Below are positions 11,137 through 48,884 of a DNA stretch of 64,000 bases, piece by piece (the stretch's first letter is position 1; each line of letters starts with the position of its first letter). A program made the position numbers and the translations under genes. Location of the stretch: the NCBI RefSeq assembly GCF_012222305.1, contig NZ_CP035730.1, positions 434,001-498,000 of the forward strand, given 5' to 3'. The notes under the pieces were generated by a model. The model ran no database searches, was not told where the DNA came from, and saw nothing but the letters and a program-made list of their open reading frames with translations. The DNA comes from Sulfolobus sp. S-194 (GTDB lineage: Archaea > Thermoproteota > Thermoprotei_A > Sulfolobales > Sulfolobaceae).

Positions 11137-13500
<2,364 letters not shown>

Positions 13501-13506
13501 AAATAA

Positions 13507-13737
13507 ATGTGGAGAGAAATTCCATTACATTACATTATTCTTGAAATTCTTAAAAAGAGAAATGCGCCTATTACAGATGAGGATTTATATAACGAAGTTA
13601 AGAAAAGCGTAAATTATGAGATATCTTTTTCTGATTTTTTAAAAGCATTAATGAAACTAGAAATTAGGGGATTTATTACAGTAACGTTAATAAGAGAGAA
13701 TGTAAGAATGATTAATTATATAGGTGAGAAGGAATAG
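13507..13737 (+). CDS. Small winged-helix-like protein upstream of FEN-1
   Basis: 76 residues. The sequence fits a winged helix: a helix with YIILEILKKRNAPI, a second helix ITDEDLYNEV, a recognition-like helix FSDFLKALMKLEIRG and a beta hairpin FITVTLIRENVRMINYI. It starts 6 bp after cdc48 and its TAG stop overlaps the first codon of FEN-1, so it is translated from the same message. It could regulate or escort its neighbours, but no function is known to me. Confidence 0.7.
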   Translation: MWREIPLHYIILEILKKRNAPITDEDLYNEVKKSVNYEISFSDFLKALMKLEIRGFITVTLIRENVRMINYIGEKE

Positions 13738-14795
13738 GAGTAGATCTTGCTGAACTTGTTGAAGAGGTAAAAAAGGAACTGTCTTTTGCTGAACTTAAAG
13801 GAAAGAAAATAAGTATTGATGCATATAATGCTCTTTATCAATTTTTGGCTGCGATAAGGCAACCAGATGGAACGCCATTAATGGATAGTCAAGGAAGGGT
13901 GACTAGCCATCTTAATGGATTATTTTATAGGACTATAAGTATCTTAGAGGAGGGGATTATACCTATTTATGTTTTTGATGGAAAACCGCCTGAACAAAAA
14001 GCTCAAGAACTGGAACGGAGAAAAAAAGTAAAAGAAGAAGCTGAAAAAAAGTTAGAGCAAGCCAAAGCTGAAGGAAACATAAAGACTAGTGAGTTTAAAA
14101 AATATGCTCAAATGAGTATTAGGCTTAGTAACGAAATGGCTGAAGAAAGTAAGGAATTACTAAAAGCTATGGGAATACCAGTAGTTCAAGCACCTTCAGA
14201 AGGCGAAGCAGAAGCGGCATATATAAATATTTTAGGCTTAAGTTGGGCAACTGCAAGCCAGGACTATGACTCACTTTTATTTGGTGCTAAAAGGTTAGTA
14301 AGAAATCTCACTTTATCTGGTAAAAGGAAACTTCCAGGGAAAGATGTATATGTAGAGATTAAACCGGAACTAATAGAACTAGATACTTTATTAAAAAAAT
14401 TGGGTTTAACCAGAGAACAATTAATAGACATCGGCATTATAGTTGGAACAGATTATAACCCAGATGGTATTAAAGGTTATGGTGTTAAAACTGCGTATAG
14501 AATTATTAAAAAATATGGCAGTTTAGAAAAAGCAATAGAAAAAGGAGAAATACCAAAAATTAAAGTTAACTTTAATGTCGAAGAGATAAGAAGTCTATTC
14601 TTAAACCCCCAAGTAGTAGAGCCTAAGGAAAATCTTGAACTAGCAGATTGTGATGATAATAAAATTTTGGATATATTAGTTAAAACACATGATTTTAACG
14701 AGGAAAGAGTAAAAAACGGAATAGAGAGATTAGAAAAAGCAAAGAGAGAAGCAAAAGGAGCTTCCCGCCAGACTGGACTTGATCAATGGTTTTGA
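13734..14795 (+). CDS. fen: Flap endonuclease 1 (FEN-1), apparent ATA start
   Basis: 353 residues if read from ATA at 13734. FEN-1 removes 5' flaps during Okazaki-fragment maturation and repair. The conserved N-terminus of archaeal FEN-1 is MGVDLAxLV, and here the DNA encodes IGVDLAELV starting with ATA; an in-frame TGA lies two codons upstream, and no ATG, GTG or TTG occurs until 13845, which would delete the first catalytic aspartate region. Active-site acids are in DAYNALYQF, VFDGKPPE, EGEAEAAY, SQDYDSLL and GTDYNPDG. The C-terminus QTGLDQWF is the PCNA-interacting PIP box. A GGTGAG Shine-Dalgarno motif lies 5 nt before the ATA, and ATA overlaps the previous stop codon as ATAG. Confidence 0.93.
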   Translation: MGVDLAELVEEVKKELSFAELKGKKISIDAYNALYQFLAAIRQPDGTPLMDSQGRVTSHLNGLFYRTISILEEGIIPIYVFDGKPPEQKAQELERRKKVKEEAEKKLEQAKAEGNIKTSEFKKYAQMSIRLSNEMAEESKELLKAMGIPVVQAPSEGEAEAAYINILGLSWATASQDYDSLLFGAKRLVRNLTLSGKRKLPGKDVYVEIKPELIELDTLLKKLGLTREQLIDIGIIVGTDYNPDGIKGYGVKTAYRIIKKYGSLEKAIEKGEIPKIKVNFNVEEIRSLFLNPQVVEPKENLELADCDDNKILDILVKTHDFNEERVKNGIERLEKAKREAKGASRQTGLDQWF

Positions 14796-46881: not shown

Positions 46882-48045
46882 TTATATCAAATTTTCTAAT
46901 GAAGTATAAACAACTCTATTTACAATAAGACCTATTATACCTATTAAAGAAAGTAGAGTAAAGCTTACCTCATAGTCATGAATAGAAAACAGATAAGCTG
47001 TAACTGAAGTAGAAAAGGCTCTTCCAAGTCCTTCTGCCATCCTAGTAAATCCCATTGCCATACCTATTTCTTTACTATGATATTTATATGATACTATATA
47101 AGAAATTGATAAAATTATTGGATTTAAAATAATTTCACCTAATGATATAAATATTATAAATAGTGTCAATCCAATTATATTTCCAAGATAGAAAATACTT
47201 AAATACGACATAGAAAAGACAAATGAACCTAAAACGTATAAATACTTCAAATGACTCAAGTTTAATTTCGCCATATATCTTCCTATGGGTTCTTGAAATA
47301 AAGCACTTAATAAACTATTTAAGGAAATAAAATAACCTATTAATAAACTAGGAATTTTAAGAATATTAGTAGAATAAACCGTAAAGCCAAAGAGTATTTG
47401 TGAAGCTACAAACGCAAATATGAATTGAACTAGAATAATCTCCATTAAATATTTAGATGGTTTAATAAAATACTCTCTATGTGAGCCATTATTAGTATTT
47501 TCTTTGATATTTAATTTATAAACTATAGGTATAGAAATTAAATTTCCTAAACTACCTAAAAGAAGAATAAAATTCCATCCAAGATAGTAATATAATAAAC
47601 CACCTATTATAGGTCCGATGACCCAACCTAAATTTATCCCTGCTCTAAATCTAGAAAAAGATAATAAAAGATCTTTTACAGAGGGAGAACTCAAATTACC
47701 AGTAGCTGTAGAAGATGAAGTAATGTATAGCGAATTAAGAAATGCCTGAATACTTAATATTATTATTCCGCATACACCATTAGTTAAAAAGAAGCCTAAA
47801 AATAATACTATAGACGTTAAAAATAATGAGACTACAATAGTATTTTTTGTTCCTATACTGTCAGCTAGATAACCAGCTAAAATATAGGATATTACTAATA
47901 TAGGATAACCAAGAGAATAATATATAATGACTAATAATGATGATAAGTGATAAAAATCATAAAGAGCTATACCAGTATAAGTCCATATTGCGGTTAATGA
48001 TGAAAATCTTATAATATTTACAGAAAAAATAATTTTATCTTTCAG
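46882..48045 (-). CDS. Major facilitator superfamily transporter, apparent CTG start
   Basis: 387 residues if read from CTG at 48043-48045. The frame is open for the full length of an MFS protein with about 12 hydrophobic segments, including the loop 2-3 motif GYLADSIGTKNT (an MFS signature A variant) near residue 65. It has no ATG, GTG or TTG before codon 118 (a TTG), and an in-frame TGA precedes the CTG by three codons. The CTG overlaps the stop of the upstream gene as CTGA, and a GGTGA Shine-Dalgarno motif lies 6 nt upstream. It likely exports or imports a small molecule linked to the two upstream genes. If CTG is not used, this would be an N-terminally broken gene. Confidence 0.8.
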   Translation of the reverse strand: MKDKIIFSVNIIRFSSLTAIWTYTGIALYDFYHLSSLLVIIYYSLGYPILVISYILAGYLADSIGTKNTIVVSLFLTSIVLFLGFFLTNGVCGIIILSIQAFLNSLYITSSSTATGNLSSPSVKDLLLSFSRFRAGINLGWVIGPIIGGLLYYYLGWNFILLLGSLGNLISIPIVYKLNIKENTNNGSHREYFIKPSKYLMEIILVQFIFAFVASQILFGFTVYSTNILKIPSLLIGYFISLNSLLSALFQEPIGRYMAKLNLSHLKYLYVLGSFVFSMSYLSIFYLGNIIGLTLFIIFISLGEIILNPIILSISYIVSYKYHSKEIGMAMGFTRMAEGLGRAFSTSVTAYLFSIHDYEVSFTLLSLIGIIGLIVNRVVYTSLENLI

Positions 48046-48884
48046 AAAAGTTCACCCAATGGATGATGTATGAATTTTCCAAAAAATATTTCGCAAAACT
48101 GTTTATATAATATAGTATGAAGAATAAACAGATGGAAATACATGTCTACTACACCACTTGGTGCTGCATAATTCAATTCCTTTCCACCATATGCTATATT
48201 TAGAGCCATCCATTTTTTAAATTCTAACTCTATTCTTTTTACTATATTATTATCTAGTTTACCAAAATGTGCTATTAATGGAAATCTTTGTTCCGGCACA
48301 AATTTAAACTCATCAATAGTATGAAGTAAATTTTCTGATATAGGTGATAGGTCTAATCTTTCAAGCATGAGTACTCGATCTAAAGTCTTATCATCCAACG
48401 ATTCTAAAGCCTTTTTAGGTAATATAGTTATTTCATTAATATTGCTAGGATTTAAATTAAATCTTAATCTGAAACTATTATCATCATTATTTAATAATTT
48501 CTTTAATAAAACATTATCATATCTAGGTATTCCCCAAACACTTTTGCTAAATTTTTCGTATTCCTTTGTATGAAGAATAAGAAAGTGCCAATATAGATCC
48601 ACAGCGCCACTTGCAGTAAATAACCTTTTAGGGAAAACAATCGTTAATGCTACAAATCGCCTAAATTCTTTTTCAATCTTTTCAGCTAATTCTCTATCCG
48701 CTTTCCCATAATAAATTTTTATAGGCCAAACTTGTTCTGGAGAAAATCTGCGTCCTTTCCATATGAAATTTGATGTAATATATGATAGATCATATGTGTC
48801 TAAAATTTCTAGCCTCTCTTTTACTTTATCTAATCTTTCTTCTGGAACATATTTACGTAATTTCTCATCATTAATAATACTCAC
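48042..48884 (-). CDS. GRDP/DUF1399-like protein with two internal repeats
   Basis: 280 residues built of two similar halves (about 1-135 and 140-280). Each half has a helix with RLEILDTYDLS or RLDLSPI, FxPEQxxP, EFRRFVALTIVF or EFKKWMALNIAY, and the most conserved block ASGAVDLYWHFLILHTKEYEKF or PSGVVDMYFHLFILHTILYKQF. A V-D-x-x-W-H-x-x-x-L-H-T-x-x-Y block is the hallmark of the glycine-rich-domain-protein (DUF1399) family. The conserved His and Asp could bind a metal. Function unknown; it is coupled to the MFS gene. Confidence 0.7.
   Translation of the reverse strand: MSIINDEKLRKYVPEERLDKVKERLEILDTYDLSYITSNFIWKGRRFSPEQVWPIKIYYGKADRELAEKIEKEFRRFVALTIVFPKRLFTASGAVDLYWHFLILHTKEYEKFSKSVWGIPRYDNVLLKKLLNNDDNSFRLRFNLNPSNINEITILPKKALESLDDKTLDRVLMLERLDLSPISENLLHTIDEFKFVPEQRFPLIAHFGKLDNNIVKRIELEFKKWMALNIAYGGKELNYAAPSGVVDMYFHLFILHTILYKQFCEIFFGKFIHHPLGELF

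Follow-up and report, generated by a model that had tools for sequence, protein, structure and literature searches.

A conserved AUA, AUC or AUU as the probable start codon of fen1 in the Sulfolobaceae

The fen1 locus

The DNA analysed (the window) was a stretch of 64,000 nt from Sulfolobus sp. S-194, positions 434,001 to 498,000 of contig NZ_CP035730.1. The gene fen1, for flap endonuclease 1 (FEN-1), lies at positions 13734 to 14795 of the window (+) and consists of 353 codons plus a stop codon. Its product was assigned to FEN-1 (XPG/RAD2 nucleases) by a Pfam search, in which the XPG_N and XPG_I domains were both present above the cut-off (PF00752, 74.7 bits with a cut-off of 22; PF00867, 95 bits with a cut-off of 24.9). 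The best match in the PDB was 2izo, which we take to be the FEN-1 of S. solfataricus. Upstream on the same strand are ORF76 (13507 to 13737), a gene for a small winged-helix-like protein of 76 aa whose winged-helix matches were weak and below the cut-off, and a gene with a TTG start (11179 to 13500) that, from its protein sequence, presumably encodes a cdc48/VAT-like AAA ATPase. The order cdc48-ORF76-fen1 (11137 to 14795 in the window, +) is kept in the family. It recurs in several further families of the same order and in one Thermofilaceae genome, and a functional link between the ORF76 protein and FEN-1 is possible.

The codon at the fen1 start position is ATA (13734-13736, +), and from position 13725 the fen1 frame reads TGA GAA GGA ATA GGA GTA GAT, with the TGA (13725-13727) closing the frame upstream. 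The sequence GGTGAG (13723-13728) ends 5 nt before the ATA, and the Shine-Dalgarno (SD) core GGTGA (13723-13727) stands 6 nt ahead of it. The stop codon of ORF76, TAG (13735-13737), overlaps the ATA, and the junction is therefore ATAG. The in-frame TGA two codons upstream, the GGTGAG and the ATAG overlap had all been described in an earlier, sequence-only reading of this DNA and were confirmed in the window. It had also been argued that starting at the first downstream ATG, GTG or TTG codon (NTG below) would remove active-site residues, and this holds: the codon is TTG 13845, at residue 38, and the Asp of IDAYNA is residue 29. The ORF76 frame contains another TAG at 13741-13743 (+), formed by the GTA GAT of fen1. 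Of the 29 family members, 27 have retained it, GC-rich ones included, and it is perhaps a back-up stop.

The start codon column in the family and other starts in the window

The fen1 gene was found in 29 of the 31 Sulfolobaceae genomes searched (loci L013-L041), the two genomes with no match being 79% and 71% complete. The aligned start column held ATA in 25 loci, ATC in three (L029, L034 and L036) and ATT in one (L030), collectively AUH below, and ATG, GTG or TTG in none of the 29. Outside the family, the same column held NTG in 48 of the 48 fen1 genes examined (ATG 24, TTG 13, GTG 11), which were handled in two batches of 28 genes (ATG 14, TTG 9, GTG 5) and 20 genes (ATG 10, GTG 6, TTG 4). 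This outside sample was made up of 40 of 165 order-level matches and 8 other loci, and covered 8 of the order's 10 other families (all except f6 and f11) and genomes beyond the order. L009, which begins inside the gene, and L012, which is bacterial and 26% identical, were left out of the outgroup, and L001 and L002, which seem to be the same as the G001 and G011 contigs, were counted once. A sequencing or assembly error as the source of the ATA is refuted by the agreement of 29 independent genomes, and its probability is practically nil.

A maximum-likelihood tree built from 57 proteins placed the 29 AUH genes in one clade with a support of 100/100. The start codon labels over the whole tree require 14 changes, of which three, as read by eye, fall within the AUH clade and are all from one AUH codon to another; no reversion from AUH to NTG was seen in any sampled lineage of that clade. 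Outside the family, starts often switched among ATG, GTG and TTG. A single fully supported clade with only AUH-to-AUH changes inside it means that AUH arose once, and the AUH start of fen1 is a family-wide trait of single origin. The sequence-only reading had placed the start at ATA and named the codon in related strains as a check; AUH in 29/29 genes of the family against NTG in 48/48 outside argues for that start, and the reading had, if anything, understated a trait that is shared by the whole family and arose once. The absence of G from the start codon is weak evidence of selection on its own, since in third position G is likewise missing from codon 3 and uncommon at codon 2.

It had further been suggested that, in this organism generally, non-standard start codons are tolerated when ribosomes reinitiate at strong SD sites, with positions 2084 and 48045 as additional cases. 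For this, 56 conserved ORFs of the window were compared with up to three congeners, a permissive comparison because the NTG that two ORFs share is not necessarily their start codon. A shared NTG was found automatically in 45 of the 56, and the 11 flagged ORFs were inspected by eye: five had a shared NTG, two were on cut pieces, one had an unconserved N-terminus, one overlapped tRNA-Val, and two were without a shared NTG. These counts leave out an automatic scan of start columns (19 genes), which picked internal columns for some. These last two were fen1 and the kinase ORF of position 2084, and tolerance across the organism is not supported.

The kinase ORF (1991-2863, +), which we take to encode a PfkB-like sugar kinase, has no nearby ATG, GTG or TTG in 4/4 genomes of the genus: G028 is without a usable NTG near the start, and the other three genomes have only a far-upstream TTG. 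All four have GTA ATA at the place of 2084, and the upstream gene, with its Glu-rich tail, extends into the 5' part of the ORF. Elsewhere in the family, the overlapping N-terminal stretch contains NTG, mostly ATG or GTG. Within the genus the kinase is retained as a candidate for a second AUA start, a status that does not extend to the rest of the family. The ORF with a CTG near its start at position 48045 (46882-48051, −), presumably for an MFS-type transporter, lends no support. Its close relatives were found only in G015, of another genus (96% identical), and in G029 (77% identical), each with one in-frame TAG, and the CTG is common only to the window copy and the 96% identical copy. The window's genome contains another, decayed copy, and the gene is sporadic and decaying.

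The ORF76 junction and signals upstream of the start

Within the family, ORF76 stops at −4 nt relative to the fen1 start in 23 genomes, at −10 in three, at +6 in two and at −1 in one, so that the upstream stop overlaps the start or lies a few nucleotides from it in 29/29. This is the arrangement of ATGA-type coupling, from which fen1 differs in its AUH start and in the varying form of the overlap (−10, −4, −1, +6). For the 16 outside genes with ORF76 upstream, the distance ranged from 0 to 115 nt and was at most 10 nt in two. A new gene neighbour was considered as the cause of AUH and rejected, as the same order occurs outside the family and only the distance differs. The nearer ORF76 stop in the family suggests that close coupling came first and that a weak start was then tolerated or profitable. 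The overlap alone does not explain AUH, because six genomes (L025, L026, L029, L030, L034 and L036) keep AUH without ATAG; in L077 and L078, outside the family, the ORF76 stop is at most 5 nt away, yet the starts are TTG and ATG.

The SD core was GGTGA in 26 family loci, GGGGA in two and GGTGG in one, always with a spacing of 6 nt, and the spacer between core and AUH came in eight versions among the 29 loci. A strong SD at fixed spacing, as in conserved near-cognate AUH starts, is thus present in 29/29. We assume an anti-SD that matches GGTGA; two 16S tail sequences were searched in the window's genome and gave no match. A GGTGA-to-ATG spacing of 6 nt was found in 3 of 21 cases near neighbouring ORFs, which is too sparse to serve as a standard. 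No leader structure stable at 75 °C was found when the region from −35 to +35 was folded (mean −0.5 kcal/mol).

Stops in the fen1 frame and downstream NTG codons were scanned in 26 rows, leaving out L033-L035 (codons ATA, ATC and ATA). A fen1-frame stop lies 1-3 codons upstream in 26/26 of these rows, the other three family rows having been seen by eye, and in L036 a TGA directly adjoins the ATC. It counts against the start reading that every AUH codon encodes isoleucine, as expected also of an internal residue. If FEN-1 were made as an extension of ORF76, through −1 frameshifting or stop readthrough, AUH would encode an internal Ile; the ORF76 and fen1 frames do abut, and S. solfataricus is known to use −1 frameshifting, according to the extracts of one paper (PMC8211752). 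No slippery heptamer was present in the ORF76 frame in any of the 29 rows, however, and the relation of the two frames is not constant, ORF76 ending in the fen1 frame in L025 and L026 and differently in the other 27 loci. With the fen1 frame closed just upstream, immediately so in L036, and with outside genes starting by NTG at the same codon, a recoded fusion is very improbable.

A shorter FEN-1, initiated at a downstream NTG, would agree with the crystallised protein of 2izo, whose chain has one residue only before Asp7 and is without the residues of codons 1-5 (13734-13748). They are probably absent because the start codon went unrecognised. The first NTG downstream of AUH occurs at scattered places between residues 8 and 56, beyond the metal-ligand Asp29 in 18 of the 26 rows. 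The GVDL residues remain conserved, and a shorter enzyme is hardly credible.

Proposed initiation of fen1 and known systems

The explanation that we favour, at a probability of about 0.7 for the whole, is that AUH, a rare and weak kind of start, is the true start of fen1, guided by the SD, coupled to ORF76 and of low output. Either ribosomes at the end of ORF76 translation or 30S subunits positioned by GGUGA would initiate with Met-tRNAi on AUA, and likewise on AUC or AUU in some relatives, on a message that fen1 presumably shares with ORF76. The initiator Met would presumably be removed, exposing Gly2. The change from NTG to AUH would have been fixed once, on the stem of the Sulfolobaceae and together with the move of the ORF76 stop up to the start of fen1, which would have stayed free of strong starts ever since, presumably to some benefit. 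The likely effect is a low synthesis of FEN-1 that depends on translation of ORF76, and the AUH start probably limits FEN-1 output, judging by the bacterial cases discussed below.

Alternatively, AUH could be the true start without any regulatory role: little FEN-1 would be needed, the SD would compensate for the weak codon, and going back to AUG would seldom occur or would carry a slight cost, as the change of ATAG to ATGG destroys the ORF76 stop. The ATAG form is indeed present in 23/29, where reversion lengthens ORF76, and no structure or other control element was detected in the fen1 leader. Against this, the six AUH genomes without ATAG are likewise unreverted, the cost to ORF76 is just two extra codons in most genomes (second TAG, 27/29), and starts outside the family switch frequently; such a frozen accident is unlikely, though by no means negligible.

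A stronger form of the favoured explanation, in which the FEN-1 level is set by start codon stringency, with AUH read mainly by reinitiation after ORF76 or under relaxed aIF1 discrimination, is tentative and on the doubtful side. If it is true, the flap endonuclease level would be tied to translation of the upstream gene, and infC/pcnB control would have a family-wide counterpart in archaea, acting on a DNA replication gene. Autoregulation through aIF1, as for infC, was rejected: aIF1 was found in 30 of the 31 Sulfolobaceae genomes with an in-frame ATG in its N-terminal part at 30/30 loci, and the product of the AUH gene is FEN-1.

That all the species examined in the family have AUA, AUC or AUU implies that archaeal ribosomes naturally use near-cognate starts that differ at the third position, and makes fen1 a natural substrate for studies of reinitiation and of discrimination by aIF1 in tractable members of Sulfolobus. 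Gene callers limited to NTG must truncate FEN-1 here, and 2izo is without the first conserved residues. A search of the open-licence literature gave no paper recognisable as describing an AUH start of fen1; database curators may already have extended fen1 entries. In the extracts of one source (PMC7531240), archaeal starts are described as AUG, GUG and UUG, with AUA and AUU going unmentioned there, and extracts of two others credit the aIF1 of S. solfataricus with promoting discrimination against start codons that are non-canonical (PMC8211752, PMC6237735).

Extracts of the bacterial literature describe infC (IF3) as having a conserved AUH start with a strong SD, AUU in E. coli and AUA in S. 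aureus (PMC13009471, PMC9410913). The fen1 gene is alike in both features, but the infC product discriminates against its own start, whereas the fen1 product is a nuclease. The pcnB gene of E. coli reportedly has an AUU start and is translationally limited, going by the title of a paper of Binns and Masters from 2002; it is, like fen1, a gene for a nucleic-acid enzyme with an AUH-type start, but it is bacterial and has its limitation in the title, whereas for fen1 limitation is what we infer. Starts at AUA or AUU with an extended SD gave about 10% of the AUG output in S. aureus according to extracts of PMC13009471, where ccpN (AUA) and cvfC1 (AUU) share with fen1 a near-cognate start that is conserved in the lineage, theirs with an extended SD. 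The lower output was measured there and would be expected for fen1, and no stop-start overlap is mentioned in those extracts. Near-cognate starts were thus already known from bacterial infC, pcnB and ccpN, and what appears to be new here is conserved near-cognate initiation in archaea, in a replication gene and with stop-start coupling.
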